From: Heliopora coerulea
Lineage: Eukaryota; Cnidaria; Anthozoa; Scleralcyonacea; Helioporidae
Direction of reading: 5' to 3'
DNA: 64,000 bases
NCBI GenBank assembly: GCA_030142905.1
Contig: JASJOG010000028.1
Coordinates: 2,108,001 to 2,172,000 of the forward strand
Part shown: positions 25,424 through 60,215 of the stretch, in pieces
Layout: every line of letters starts with the position of its first letter
Numbering within the stretch: position 1 is the stretch's first letter
Made by a program: the position numbers and the translations under genes
Notes under the pieces: model-generated
The model's database searches: none
What the model saw: the letters and a program-made list of their open reading frames with translations, nothing else
Told to the model about the DNA's origin: nothing

Positions 25424-26762
25424 GTAGTGAGATTGCTTATATGGTTGCTACTCCGAGTTTCACGCGGATGCGATCTTCAGGCAACTGAAACAGCGTCGAT
25501 TCATTGTCTCCTTTTTCTCTGGTCATTGACGTCATGGTTTGCGATGGTTGGATGACTCATCGCTATTGTCCTCGTGTGGCTTGTCTTTGAGAAATCCGTT
25601 CCAGTGTCTGCACTTTGAGACGATCTCCGATCTTTTGTTGAGAAGGTTCTTTAGGTGTTTTTTTAGGTGTGCTTTCATGATGCAAAGCTTTTCCTCCAGG
25701 CAAAGGTTACATCTTTTTGCTCCGCTTGTGTAGGCCGCGGCTCTTTTCACGATCGCCCATTTTATATTGAAAGATTGGCTATTTGATTTTAGATCCCATA
25801 CGTATTTTGATAGTACAGTCTCATTGGAGTACTTGCTATCTTTGAAGGATTTGATGTGGTCTCTGTGTCGTTCTTTAAAGCTGTTTGCTATCATTCCTAT
25901 GTACTGTTTTATCTCTCCGGTGTCTGTCGTGGTTACGTCGGGTCTATAAACGATGTTGTCAGTTAAGCAGTTACCTTGAAGCGGGCACTGTCCTTTTGTT
26001 CTGCAGTTGCAATTATCTGTTCTCTGAAGCTTTCTATTTTCATATTTATTTAGGATTCGGGAGTTATATTTGGTGATCATAGTCTTCATGTTGTCCATGC
26101 AGCTGTAGCTAATTTTGACTGTGTTCCGGTTGAAGATTTTGTGCAGAGTGCATGACTCAGGAAAATGCTTGTCAATTAGTTTTAGAAAGTTATGGCCAAT
26201 TTTTGATCTGATTTTCTTGCTATATGGTGGGTTGAACCATATAATGTTTCTGCGTCTACGTTTTTGGGACGATGTAGATTCGGGCGTCTTGTCGCTGTCG
26301 GAGATATATTGGAGTTTGGTGTTAAAGTGGCTACGTCTTAGTGCGTCTTCGTATATAGGTGCTGCAGAGTCGAAGGTTGATTGGTTTGATGATAATTGTG
26401 AAATGCGAGAATTGATGGAGGCTGGAAGATGTTTGATTATTGATGGGGGATGGTTGGAGTGGCTGATGATGTACAGTGGGTCGTCGTTCGGTTTTCTGTA
26501 CGGTCGGTAGTCACCGTTCATCAGGTTGAACGTGATGTCGAGGAAGTTTACACTCTTCAGATTAGTTTGGGCTGTGATTTTTAGGCCAAGTTGGTCGAAA
26601 ATCTTGATTAGCTCTTTCCTTGTTTTATCAGCCGATCGACCGGTGGTGTTCTTTAGAAGTGCTAGCCCGTCGTCTCGGTAAAGGCCCACGTTGTTTTTCC
26701 CAAATTTACTGGTTAGCACATTGAGAATAAACAGGCCGACTAATTCGCATACTTCGGCGCCG
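25424..26762 (-). mobile_element. Penelope-like RT/GIY-YIG 3' half, left arm of inverted duplication
   Basis: The minus-strand ORF 26719-25532 (395 codons, open) starts within the RT. GLYRDDG contains the catalytic aspartates near 26665, followed by NFLDITFNL. A region with IIWFNPPYSKK, LIDKHFPES and IFNRNTVKISYSCM follows, then a Cys-rich cluster (CNCRTKGQCPLQGNC) and a GIY-YIG-like endonuclease (IVYRPDV, QYIG, FKERHRDH, ETVLSKYVW), and a C-terminal CNLCLEEK zinc-knuckle-like motif. RT fingers and N-terminus are missing, so it cannot work alone. Its 3' end carries a hammerhead-like motif. It is almost identical to 26842-28192 in reverse orientation. Confidence 0.85.
25444..25485 (-). ncRNA. 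Hammerhead-like ribozyme motif in PLE 3' end
   Basis: On the minus strand: stem I GTTGC (plus 25485-25481) pairs with GCAAC (plus 25448-25444). The core is CTGAAGA (plus 25480-25474). Stem II is CGC/GCG around ATCC, with a U-U apposition at its base. Then GAAA (plus 25461-25458), and stem III ACTC/GAGT with a one-base loop, followed by A at the cleavage position. The homologous motif at 62823-62866 has compensated changes in stem III, which supports the fold. Confidence 0.68.
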
Positions 26763-26841
26763 AGGTATGCGATGTTGCAATGGGCGGTTACAATGGGGGG
26801 TTACGACGGGGGAGTTACGATGTTGCAATGGGGAGTTACGA
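26763..26841. repeat. Spacer of the PLE palindrome, short tandem repeats
   Basis: A 79-bp spacer between arms, made of repeated TTGCAATGGG, GGGAGTTACGA and GGTTAC strings. In the plus direction it reads in frame into the right-arm RT as glycine- and tyrosine-rich peptide (MGSYDGAEVCE), which looks like the RT motif preceding YRDD, so the repeats probably arose by slippage within RT sequence. Confidence 0.7.
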
Positions 26842-28192
26842 CGGCGCCGAGGTATGCGAATTATTCGGCCTGTTTATTCTCAATGAGCTAACCAGTAAAT
26901 TTGGGAAAAACAACGTGGGCCTTTACCGAGACGACGGGCTAGCACTTCTAAAGAACACCACCGGTCGATCGGCTGATAAAACAAGGAAAGAGCTAATCAA
27001 GATTTTCGACCAACTTGGCCTAAAAATTACAGCCCAAACTAATCTGAAGAGTGTAAACTTCCTCGACATCACGTTCAACCTGATGAACGGTGACTACCGA
27101 CCGTACAGAAAACCGAACGACGACCCACTGTACATCATCAGCCACTCCAACCATCCCCCATCAATAATCAAACATCTTCCAGCCTCCATCAATTCTCGCA
27201 TTTCACAATTATCATCAAACCAATCAACCTTCGACTCTGCAGCACCTATATACGAAGACGCACTAAGACGTAGCCACTTTAACACCAAACTCCAATATAT
27301 CTCCGACAGCGACAAGACGCCCGAATCTACATCGTCCCAAAAACGTAGACGCAGAAACATTATATGGTTCAACCCACCATATAGCAAGAAAATCAGATCA
27401 AAAATTGGCCATAACTTTCTAAAACTAATTGACAAGCATTTTCCTGAGTCATGCACTCTGCACAAAATCTTCAACCGGAACACAGTCAAAATTAGCTACA
27501 GCTGCATGGACAACATGAAGACTATGATCACCAAATATAACTCCCGAATCCTAAATAAATATGAAAATAGAAAGCTTCAGAGAACAGATAATTGCAACTG
27601 CAGAACAAAAGGACAGTGCCCGCTTCAAGGTAACTGCTTAACTGACAACATCGTTTATAGACCCGACGTAACCACGACAGACACCGGAGAGATAAAACAG
27701 TACATAGGAATGATAGCAAACAGCTTTAAAGAACGACACAGAGACCACATCAAATCCTTCAAAGATAGCAAGTACTCCAATGAGACTGTACTATCAAAAT
27801 ACGTATGGGATCTAAAATCAAATAGCCAATCTTTCAATATAAAATGGGCGATCGTGAAAAGAGCCGCGGCCTACACAAGCGGAGCAAAAAGATGTAACCT
27901 TTGCCTGGAGGAAAAGCTTTGCATCATGAAAGCACACCTAAAAAAACACCTAAAGAACCTTCTCAACAAAAGATCGGAGATCGTCTCAAAGTGCAGACAC
28001 CGGAACAGATTTCTCATCTCAAAGACAAGCCACACGAGGACAATAGCGATGAGTCATCCAACCATCGCAAACCATGACGTCAATGACCAGAGAAAAAGGA
28101 GACAATGAATCGACGCTGTTTCAGTTGCCTGAAGATCGCATCCGCATGAAACTCGGAGTAGCAACCATATACTCTTAAGCGAAATCTCACTA
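26842..28192 (+). mobile_element. Penelope-like RT/GIY-YIG 3' half, right arm of inverted duplication
   Basis: The plus-strand ORF 26780-28108 (through the spacer) encodes the same protein as the left arm: CELFGLFILNELTSKFG, GLYRDDG, the NPPYSKK block, Cys cluster, GIY-YIG and the C-terminal zinc-knuckle-like motif. The two arms differ only at a few sites. The main ones are a small insertion near 28015, which changes the last residues, and some 10 bases near 28175. Such identity over about 1.34 kb points to a very recent inverted duplication or to gene conversion between the arms. Confidence 0.85.
28124..28165 (+). ncRNA. Hammerhead-like motif, mutated copy
   Basis: The same motif as at 25444-25485, on the plus strand: GTTGC (28124-28128), CTGAAGA (28129-28135), GAAA, ACTC/GAGT, GCAAC (28161-28165). 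The stem II partner reads GCA where the other arm has GCG, so one stem II pair is lost here. Confidence 0.55.
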
Positions 28193-56269: not shown

Positions 56270-56915
56270 GTTTTTGTTGGAAGCCGATCAGGAAATATTT
56301 TATGTATTAAGGAAGGATGACCTCATCTCTTCAGGAAAACACTTAGAATTGGATGTTAAGGGTTCTATGCATGAAAACGAAATTCGAAATGTCATTATGA
56401 GCTATTTAGTTAGTACTGAGGTATTTAAGGAATCTGCTGTAAAAAAATAATCCTATAACGAACACGGAAATTAGGAAATTTCAGTTGGAGTTAGAGTTTA
56501 AAGAAAGAGAAAAAGAGAGGGAACGTGAAGAAACAGAAAGAGAAAGAGAAAGTGAAGAAAGAGAAAGAGAAAGGGATCGTGAGCGAGAGATGAAAGAGAG
56601 ATTAGAAAAATAAAGGTTAGAATACGAGTTACACTTAAAGAAGTTAGAATTAGAACAACTGAGGTCTAGTCATCCGGAATCCAATCTAAATGCCAGTTTT
56701 GATGTTACTAAGCACATTAGATTGGTTCCTCCTTTCCAGGAACAGGATTTTGATAAATATTTTTTGCATTTTGAAAAGGTCGCGGAGAATCTTCAGTGGC
56801 CAAAAGAGCAATGGCCATTGTTGTTGCAAAATGTTTTAATAGGTAAAGTTCGTGAGATTTACACCCAATTGTCAGTAGAACAGGCTTCGAGTTATGATTC
56901 CATCAAGGAGTTGAT
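56270..56915 (+). pseudogene. Gypsy-like gag, N-terminal part, cut by a hAT insertion
   Basis: Frame-disrupted gag. A starting block has EADQEIFYVLRKDDLI and ENEIRNVIMSYLV. A long Arg/Glu-rich helix (56490-56620) follows, then FDVTKHIRLVPPFQEQDFDK (56700) and the capsid-like YFLHFEKVAENLQWPKEQWP, to SYDSIKEL at 56910. There the reading is interrupted by hAT copy A. Stops at about 56448 and 56610 show it is dead. The continuation of the same gag is on the other strand at 58372-58237 (see inversion). Confidence 0.8.
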
Positions 56916-57798
56916 CAGGGCCGTTGCGAAGGAAGTTGAATTGGGGGGGTGTGAGCGTTAATTTTACCGACATGGGCGTGGTCATTGGGCGTGGCAAATC
57001 AAAAAGTGAAAATCTTAATACGTTTATTGTATTTAGGATTATCAAAGATTGATGGAAGTTTATTATCTATTTTGGGTACCACTATCAGTAATATATAACT
57101 ACATAAGTACAGCATGATACCAATTTTTTAATAAATGTCCTTACGAGTTACGAATTTAGTACAGAAAGACATTCTGCATATTAAAATGTAAATGTTCTGT
57201 TCTGCAGTGCCAGTAAGGCATGCGATGACTCAACGAGCACTGATTCTTCGAGTCTTAAGCTCAATCCATCTAGCAGAAATGGCATCAATGTTAATAGAGT
57301 CTGTTAAATCCTTCTCGCAGGACAACAACATCAATGACTCTAAACGTGTATCTGTCATGGTCGTTTTCAGGTACGTTTTGATTATTTTAAGCCTGCTGAA
57401 TGTCCTCTCATCTTTTGCAACTGTCACGGGAGCCGTCATAAGCAGTCTAAACGCTTTGTTCGTGAGCGGAAAGGCTGATTTGCAATCTTCTGAAAATTTA
57501 GCTGCTTCAGCTAGGGATTCGAGCTTTTTCTTTGTCAGGTCAACGTGGCTTATAACTGCAATACTGTGAAAGATAGCAGAAGTGATATTTTTACCTATAC
57601 TAGTTTTGCTCAGTGTGCTGAGTATATACTAACTATGATGTATTCTATTGCGGTGCCGGTGAATTGTTTATTTATAGAGATCTCTCCAAAGGCCGAAGCA
57701 GTGAAACAGTTTTGGCGACAAACTATTCATTTGCCGACAACGGCAGTTTTATAGGGGGTGTCACACCCCCGACACCCCCCCCATTCGCGACGCCCCTG
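56916..57798 (-). mobile_element. hAT element copy A (deleted, C-terminal transposase only)
   Basis: 883 bp, with ends CAGGGCCGTTGCGAAGGAAG at 56916 and, on the minus strand, CAGGGGCGTCGCGAATGG starting at 57798. The minus-strand frame at about 57634-57230 encodes the hAT C-terminal dimerisation region: VISHVDLTKKKLESLAEAAK, then TVAKDERTFSRLKIIKTYLK and RLESLMLLSCEK. No catalytic N-terminal domain is present, so it needs a helper transposase. Left flank GAGTTGAT (56908-56915) is one half of an 8-bp target duplication whose partner is at 58365-58372 on the opposite strand. Confidence 0.88.
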
Positions 57799-58247
57799 AC
57801 AGAAGTTGAAAACCCGTTCGAGCGATCGATCAGGATGTTCAGAAAAGGGAGAGTTGAATTATTCTCAAATTCGCAAGTGAAGGAAATGTTGGGATGTTGT
57901 GAGTTTAGGTATTCATGAAAAGGTCGAACGTGGTCAGGAGAACTAAAAATAGCAAAACAATCATCTACATAACGGCGGAAGAAAAGCGGTTTGAACTCTG
58001 GTGGACAGTTGGCTATCCAATTACGCTCATGAAAGGATAGGAAAGTGTTAGCAAAAAGTGGACCTAGTGGAAAGCCCATGGCCACACCATCAATCTGTTC
58101 GTAAAGACGGTTATTAAATAAGAAAAAACAATTTTTAACTGAAAGGCATAAGAGTTTACGAAATTGCGATGCAGAGAAACCATTGTATAGTGCGGAATTG
58201 TTAAAAACCTTGTTAACTATGATGTCTATTGTTTCGAAAAGCGCCAA
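57799..58247 (-). pseudogene. PLE reverse transcriptase palm, inside inverted segment
   Basis: The minus-strand ORF reads ETIDIIVNKVFN, SVKNCFFLFNNRLYEQIDGV, AMGFPLGPLFANTFLSFHE, RRYVDDCFAIF (catalytic Asp pair) and LPFLNILIDRSNGFSTS. It stops at the hAT copy A boundary (57798). It continues in the plus orientation at 59270. 5' of it (58248-58236) lies the junction with gag sequence, so the PLE is 5'-truncated and had inserted into gag. Confidence 0.85.
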
Positions 58248-58372
58248 CGATCAAATAACTGTTCTTTCGTTCTAGCAAATTCGACATACGTCTGATTACT
58301 TTCTCTATCGCATGTTCGAAATTTTTGGCGGTACGCTTCCGGGACCAACTTAAAACTCCGAAGAATCAACTC
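58237..58372 (-). pseudogene. Gypsy-like gag, continuation on the opposite strand
   Basis: Minus-strand reading ELILRSFKLVPEAYRQKF and TYVEFARTKEQLFDRW, the part of gag that directly follows the segment ending at 56915. It starts at the edge of hAT copy B and ends at the PLE junction. Confidence 0.82.
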
Positions 58373-59269
58373 CAGGGGCGTCGCGAATGGGGGGGTGTCG
58401 GGGGTGTGACACCCCCCTATAAAACTGCCGTTGTCGGCAAATGAATAGTTTGTCGCCAAAACTGTTTCACTGCTTCGGCCTTTGGAGAGATCTCTATAAA
58501 TAAACAATTCACCGGCACCGCAATAGAATACATCATAGTTAGTATATACTCAGCACACTGAGCAAAACTAGTATAGGTAAAAATATCACTTCTGCTATCT
58601 TTCACAGTATTGCTGTTATAAGCCACGTTGACCTGACAAAGAAAAAGCTCGAATCCCTAGCTGAAGCAGCTAAATTTTCAGAAGATTGCAAATCAGCCTT
58701 TCCGCTCACGAACAAAGCGTTTAGACTGCTTATGACGGCTCCCGTGACAGTTGCAAAAGATGAGAGGACATTCAGCAGGCTTAAAATAATCAAAACGTAC
58801 CTGAAAACGACCATGACAGATACACGTTTAGAGTCATTGATGTTGTTGTCCTGCGAGAAGGATTTAACAGACTCTATTAACATTGATGCCATTTCTGCTA
58901 GATGGATTGAGCTTAAGACTCGAAGAATCAGTGCTCGTTGAGTCATCGCATGCCTTACTGGCACTGCAGAACAGAACATTTACATTTTAATATGCAGAAT
59001 GTCTTTCTGTACTAAATTCGTAACTCGTAAGGACATTTATTAAAAAATTGGTATCATGCTGTACTTATGTAGTTATATATTACTGATAGTGGTACCCAAA
59101 ATAGATAATAAACTTCCACAACTCTTTGATAATCCTAAATACAATAAACGTATTAAGATTTTCACTTTTTGATTTGCCACGCCCAATGACCATGCCCAAT
59201 GACCACGTCCATGTCGGTAAAATTAACGCTCACACCCCCCCCAGTTCAACTTCCTTCGCGACGGCCCTG
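58373..59269 (+). mobile_element. hAT element copy B, inverted relative to copy A
   Basis: 897 bp, from CAGGGGCGTCGCGAATGG at 58373 to the reverse complement of CAGGGCCGTCGCGAAGG ending at 59269. The transposase C-terminus is read on plus at about 58537-58941. Positions mirror copy A with a constant coordinate sum over at least 570 bp, and the translated antisense frames are identical except for one residue, so the copies are almost identical. The right flank ACTTCTGT (59270-59277) is half of a target duplication whose partner lies beside copy A (57799-57806, minus). Confidence 0.88.
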
Positions 59270-59483
59270 ACTTCTGTTTACCGAAAGCCCAGTTTCACCG
59301 GTTTATTCACGCATTTTGGCAGTTTCATTCCCATTTCCTACAAACGTGGCCTAGTTTATACTCTAGTTAATCGTTATTTTAAAATCTGTTCCTCCTACCA
59401 ACTCTTTCATTCCGAGTTACTAAACCTCAAAAAACTTTTACTCAACAATGGATATCCTAACACTTTCCTTGACAGCTGCATTA
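59270..59483 (+). pseudogene. PLE RT, continuation after hAT copy B
   Basis: Reads YRKPSFTGLFTHFGSFIPIS, YKRGLVYTLVNRYFKICSS and LLLNNGYPNTFLDSC, the RT thumb-side region that follows the FSTSV motif in PLEs. It is cut at 59483 by a Harbinger-like insertion and resumes at 60219. Confidence 0.82.
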
Positions 59484-59885: not shown

Positions 59886-60215
59886 GTTCTATCTTCGAAG
59901 CACCTGGTCAATTGAAGACAAATGCCTGAACGTCACAATTTCAACAGAAAATGATGCATTTTGGGACCGTTTCGATCGCTGGATCGATGAATTTTGTTTC
60001 CATATAATCACTGATGATCGCTGTGGATCGCTGACAATCGCTCACGATCGCTGAGATAGAACATTTTCTATCTCAGCGATCGTCAGCGATCGCGATCGCC
60101 GGGGATCGCTCACGATCGCTGGATCCCTGAAAAGTGTTTCCATATAATCGCTGTCGATCGCTCATGATCGCTGGCGATCAACAGCGATCGTCAGCGATTA
60201 TATGGAAACTAGCCT
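59484..60215 (-). mobile_element. Harbinger-like element remnant inserted in a PLE
   Basis: Flanked by TTA on both sides (59481-59483 and 60216-60218), the target length of PIF/Harbinger elements, and located exactly where PLE coding sequence breaks and resumes. It contains the MADF ORF and, at 59960-60210, a terminal array of GATCGCT palindromic units ending in ATATGGAAACTAGCC. The other end (TGTTGATGAACG repeats, 59484-59525) does not match as a terminal inverted repeat, so the left end is truncated or replaced by tandem repeats. No transposase gene remains. Confidence 0.6.
59960..60210. repeat. GATCGCT palindromic array
   Basis: About 18 copies of CGATCGCT/GATCGCTGA-type 7-9-mers in both orientations, with a central inverted repeat (GATAGAACATTTTCTATC, 60054-60071) and outer matching strings TTCCATATAATCGCTG (60140) and its complement (60196). 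Forms strong hairpins, presumably the transposase-binding end of the Harbinger-like element. Confidence 0.8.

Follow-up and report, generated by a model that had tools for sequence, protein, structure and literature searches.

Exchanged target duplications at two sister hAT copies flanking an inverted 574-bp segment in the genome assembly of Heliopora coerulea

Introduction

Inversions at hAT elements are already known from maize and Atlantic cod (PMC8225341, PMC12368964). In the account of alternative transposition in maize, Ac/fAc elements with 8-bp target duplications are found at each inversion breakpoint (PMC8225341). In Atlantic cod, arrays of hAT-derived MITEs lie at the breakpoints of large chromosomal inversions for which ectopic recombination was inferred, in a paper that also refers to previous studies of fruit fly, maize and yeast (PMC12368964). 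A cut-and-paste element of the P superfamily, Galileo, is involved in the chromosomal inversion 2z3 of Drosophila buzzatii, where inverted copies with exchanged 7-bp duplications and intact flanks are located at the breakpoints; the authors see strong evidence of ectopic recombination in the fact that the two copies are chimeras (Delprat et al. 2009, PMC2775673). The part of that study dealing with mechanism uses the chimerism of the flanking copies to separate ectopic recombination from hybrid-element insertion.

The locus described here belongs to the same class of event, which is of an ordinary kind and cleanly recorded. It is situated in a window of 64,000 nucleotides from the blue coral Heliopora coerulea (contig JASJOG010000028.1, positions 2,108,001 to 2,172,000) and is a new, small and clean case when set beside the inversions at hAT elements described in these sources.

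Structure of the locus

Two hAT copies, A and B, are arranged on either side of a 574-bp spacer, and the copies, the spacer and four flanking 8-mers occupy to the base the positions assigned to them in a first-pass annotation of the window (Table 1). The same annotation called the copies inverted and almost identical, which agrees with an identity of 97.4% with gaps counted (BLAST) and with an inverted arm of 786 bp that is 99% complementary. Its observation that the duplications pair only when the spacer is flipped also holds, as GAGTTGAT and ATCAACTC are reverse complements of each other, and so are ACAGAAGT and ACTTCTGT. The chance of two 8-mers matching in the exchanged order only is about 4^-16, by arithmetic that assumes equal base use.

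Two further repeat arrangements are present in the window. Just to the right of the locus (59970-60210), short repeats of the GATCGCT type are densely packed and contain overlapping inverted repeats, and at 25532-28108 another inverted pair is formed by long open frames, one on each strand, whose encoded proteins are nearly the same.

Table 1. Features of the locus in window coordinates
Feature	Coordinates	Strand	Remarks
Gag-like piece left of A	56614-56915	+	Pfam: no family
Target duplication x, copy 1 (GAGTTGAT)	56908-56915	+	Left of hAT A; once in 3/3 gag loci
hAT copy A, 883 bp	56916-57798	+	Non-autonomous deletion derivative
hAT transposase C-terminal remnant in A	57230-57544	-	Coordinates derived from B; PF05699 scored in B only
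Internal-deletion junction private to A and B	A 57548-57550; B 58621-58623	+ (A)	GCT microhomology
Inverted spacer, 574 bp	57799-58372	-	
Target duplication y, copy 1, inverted (ACAGAAGT)	57799-57806	-	Once in 10/11 PLE loci
Reverse-transcriptase fragment in spacer (PLE RT of the first-pass annotation)	57799-58243	-	RVT_1, E 0.0006, under curated cut-off
Gag-like frame continued in spacer, 48 codons	58229-58372	-	SCAN, E 0.0014, under curated cut-off
Target duplication x, copy 2, inverted (ATCAACTC)	58365-58372	-	Reverse complement of GAGTTGAT
hAT copy B, 897 bp	58373-59269	-	
hAT transposase C-terminal dimerisation remnant in B	58627-58941	+	PF05699, E 6.4e-08, over curated cut-off
Target duplication y, copy 2 (ACTTCTGT)	59270-59277	+	Reverse complement of ACAGAAGT
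RT (PLE) piece right of B	59270-59483	+	Pfam: no family

The hAT family

Both copies end in terminal inverted repeats of the form CAGGGCC...CGCCCCTG, which are shared by 16 of 18 other copies, while C163 and C750 show a single-base deviation at one end or at both. Such short CAGGG-type inverted repeats are hAT-like. Homology to hAT transposases is confined to a remnant in B that matches PF05699 (Dimer_Tnp_hAT) above the curated cut-off, and A carries the same frame. Both copies are missing about 1.85 kb which is found in longer copies, and their remaining parts are joined at a GCT microhomology. The extra sequence sits between the stretches retained by A and B and is colinear among C265, C105 and C63a, with about 1.5 kb of it present in C394. 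Judged from these sequence features, A and B are non-autonomous members of the hAT superfamily. The family has 32 protein relatives, the best of which is 86% identical, and no DNA relative outside the source genome was confirmed in viral_contigs and genome_contigs (63 + 13 pattern-matching stretches, none encoding a relative).

A search of the 430-Mb assembly listed 45 matches, which resolve into A, B and a further 21 copies, one of which (C63b) has no right end and was left out of the duplication count. Target duplications of 8 bp, as expected of the hAT superfamily, are direct in all 20 of the other two-ended copies (16 at 8/8 bases and four at 7/8) and exchanged at A and B, and the exchanged arrangement is therefore exceptional in this family. 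About 16 of these 20 control insertions are independent, since four copies on C323 share one target and two, on C87 and C107, share another. The C323 copies (L018-L021, at about 639, 696, 748 and 811 kb) have the common target AATACACG and are spaced by approximately 52-63 kb; from their sequence, they seem to be one insertion copied within a large segmental array. The other two are 397-bp copies with the same target ACAGTGGT (C87:622560-622964, L017, and C107:615761-616165, L022), and reflect either the duplication of a region or the retention of a second haplotype in the assembly.

Ancestral order of the interrupted sequences

The left flank of the locus is a gag-like piece that is continued by the reverse complement of the spacer, which then enters a reverse transcriptase (RT) sequence continued in turn by the right flank. 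The labels gag and PLE rest on the first-pass annotation because Pfam gives only sub-threshold matches to SCAN and RVT_1 in the spacer, and assigns neither the left gag piece nor the right PLE piece to a family. It had been proposed that flipping the spacer restores both reading frames, and related proteins and loci bear this out. Among the 120 gag relatives listed of 309 found, 71 match both pieces, all with the overlap of 2 residues that the duplicated bases should produce, and among 86 RT relatives 30 match both pieces, 27 with exactly this overlap and three with overlaps of -9, -3 and -1; these positions were extrapolated from BLAST ends, the pieces being kept separate throughout the comparison.

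At the DNA level, all three gag loci and 10 of 11 PLE loci run uninterrupted through the insertion site and contain the respective 8-mer once. In the eleventh PLE locus (L039) the pieces are adjacent without a hAT, and about 15 bases at the join, including the 8-mer, are replaced by a different sequence. These loci are a subset of the matches (48 from the left-flank search and 44 from the spacer search), and they are not all independent since L040 and L041 are overlapping loci made of neighbouring PLE copies. The match of the spacer gag DNA to the three gag loci extends to 58241, 58244 and 58228, respectively. The exchanged duplications, together with the unflipped and uninterrupted order of the related loci, make the inversion of the 574-bp segment in this assembly well supported.

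Inverted pairs of the RT (PLE) repeat recur in the genome. At C139:447740-449442 (L040/L041), RT (PLE) fragments lie in opposite orientation about 0.8 kb apart, and C766, C61 and C15 are likewise listed.

Relationship between the two copies

In a comparison of A and B with 20 other copies anchored on B, the two share nine substitutions, at B positions 52, 175, 177, 216, 268, 465, 725, 802 and 814, which are absent from every other copy that covers the sites (5 to 20 copies each); C35, the 21st of the other copies, lacks them at the seven sites it covers. Six more sites carry a minority state in both A and B, which also occurs in one to five other copies and is hence not private. In both of two unrooted trees, calculated without C35 and without copies that have fewer than 280 sites in the left part or 200 in the right, A and B stand apart from the rest with ultrafast bootstrap values of 99 for the left part (10 sequences) and 98 for the right part (21 sequences). 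A search of the 430-Mb assembly that allowed up to three mismatches located their deletion junction at two places only, A and B themselves. Because the private substitutions, the trees and the junction all single out the pair, A and B derive from one element and are not visibly chimeric: no chimerism with other copies of the family was seen, the two being sisters in both their left and right parts, in a test whose power is low in the case of twin parents.

The substitutions that distinguish the sisters are tip changes, five specific to A (10, 26, 148, 150 and 656) and two specific to B (62 and 151). At each of these sites the unchanged partner has the state of the other copies, apart from two copies at position 10, one with T as in A and one with G, and one copy at position 62, which lies in a repeat where the alignment is uncertain. 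A 13-bp repeat unit also distinguishes the two, as do the lengths of some homopolymers, and the changes at 148-151 may be one complex change.

The differences are crowded into the outer 151 bp, and the inner 746 bp contains one substitution (656) in addition to homopolymer differences. A scan over any 142-bp window returns P values of 0.0007 (8 events) or 0.013 (6 events), and when the repeat is left out and the segments are weighted by their mutability in other copies the values are 0.001 (5 events) or 0.007 (4 events); the clustering rests on 4 to 8 events, a total that varies with the way of counting, in a test framed after the data had been seen. Such a distribution suggests arm-to-arm conversion of the inner part. 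If this conversion is real, the two arms recombine.

Origin of the inversion

The first-pass annotation considered the exchanged duplications a record of inversion by recombination between transposon copies. The inversion stands; the proof of recombination does not, because exchanged duplications also fit the insertion of a hybrid element, whose outcome is strikingly similar in the relevant part of the published comparison (Delprat et al. 2009).

The explanation preferred here, tentatively and at somewhat less than even confidence, is that twin copies of one element underwent a crossover accompanied by arm-to-arm conversion. One hAT deletion derivative would have produced two copies in opposite orientation, separated by a few hundred bases, one inserted in a gag fragment and the other in the RT (PLE) fragment that adjoins it. 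Homologous exchange between the twin inverted copies, by ectopic recombination, NAHR or template switching, would then have flipped the 574-bp spacer and with it swapped the target duplications, while conversion would keep the inner stretch of approximately 746 bp nearly identical in both arms. Such an account would imply that two unflipped copies came first and that a crossover, not a transposase, turned the spacer. The exchanged duplications and the opposite orientation are those expected of ectopic recombination, and the chimerism expected of both flanking copies is not seen, although the power to see it is low with twin parents.

A quite plausible alternative is that a single aberrant jump over 574 bp, a natural case of hybrid-element transposition between sister chromatids, copied the element and inverted the segment in one step. 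A single hAT at site x would have been replicated, upon which the transposase would have joined the 3' end of one sister to the 5' end of the other, and insertion of this hybrid into site y, 574 bp away, would yield x A y' ... x' B y, with two inverted copies and a flipped spacer. Hybrid-element insertion produces the same pattern of duplications in the part of the Drosophila study that describes it (Delprat et al. 2009, PMC2775673), and the lack of chimerism, judged by the criterion of that study, favours it over recombination. It predicts copies that are identical at birth, in keeping with A and B as exclusive sisters with tip changes only and with a deletion junction at two places only, although twin copies arising locally would show the same features. 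Nearness, opposite orientation and sisterhood are all covered by the one step, and recombination between twins needs one step more. In turn, hybrid-element insertion requires an active transposase late in the life of the element and leaves the clustering in the outer 151 bp unpredicted unless a later conversion is added. Recombination between twins is kept slightly ahead because of this clustering and because inverted repeats close to each other generally flip readily, a weighting that is a matter of judgement.

Inverted repeats that lie close together are well known to undergo conversion. Two different members of the family could have inserted independently, recombined and then been homogenised by gene conversion, deletion included, which would fit both this behaviour and the observed clustering. 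Since A and B are sisters, recombination between unrelated insertions is disfavoured unless conversion replaced nearly the whole element, and the private substitutions do span B 52 to 814 of 897. The probability that two unrelated insertions would fall so near each other is approximately 4e-4 to 5e-4 (153 or 171 pairs, 574 bp either side and 430 Mb, with random placement assumed), and this origin is very unlikely.

Short-read assemblies can flip segments at inverted repeats of about 0.9 kb, the size of A and B. If the spacer were misoriented, both copies would have direct duplications on the real chromosome, and no second copy of the locus among the listed matches confirms either order: the next best place for the left flank is 85% identical, and among 44 listed spacer matches (40/438 candidates scored) the window alone covers the whole spacer. 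However, the contig of the window has 2,446,705 bases and many others exceed 1 Mb, which suggests long reads that would span the 2.4 kb, and an assembly artefact is the least probable of the readings weighed. Reversed-ends transposition of two elements, as outlined for maize, would lose the segment between the ends and leave one new matching duplication (PMC8225341), and is set aside because two duplications are exchanged here and no host sequence is missing at either join. A fold-back read chimera is rejected, the outer flanks and the spacer being different sequences.

Comparison with known systems

At this locus a transposon-flanked inversion is recorded compactly and to the exact base, and for each of the two insertion sites the same genome contains related loci that are uninterrupted. 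Exchanged duplications are often taken as proof of ectopic recombination and need to be accompanied by the chimerism test, which in this case gives no indication that unrelated copies recombined. Like 2z3, the locus combines inverted cut-and-paste copies at the breakpoints with exchanged duplications and intact flanks, but its copies are exclusive sisters in place of chimeras, and its element (a hAT), its 8-bp duplications and its 574-bp spacer set it apart from the chromosomal inversion of D. buzzatii as characterised in that account (PMC2775673). The Atlantic cod arrays resemble it in having non-autonomous hAT copies of high mutual similarity at the breakpoints, there of large chromosomal inversions, in a paper whose main text does not use the terms TSD or target site duplication (PMC12368964). 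With maize it shares hAT elements, 8-bp duplications and an element at each breakpoint, whereas the loss of a fragment and the single new duplication given there for reversed ends contrast with the intact sequence and two exchanged duplications here; the sister-chromatid variant in the same paper comes closer to the hybrid-element insertion considered for this locus (PMC8225341).
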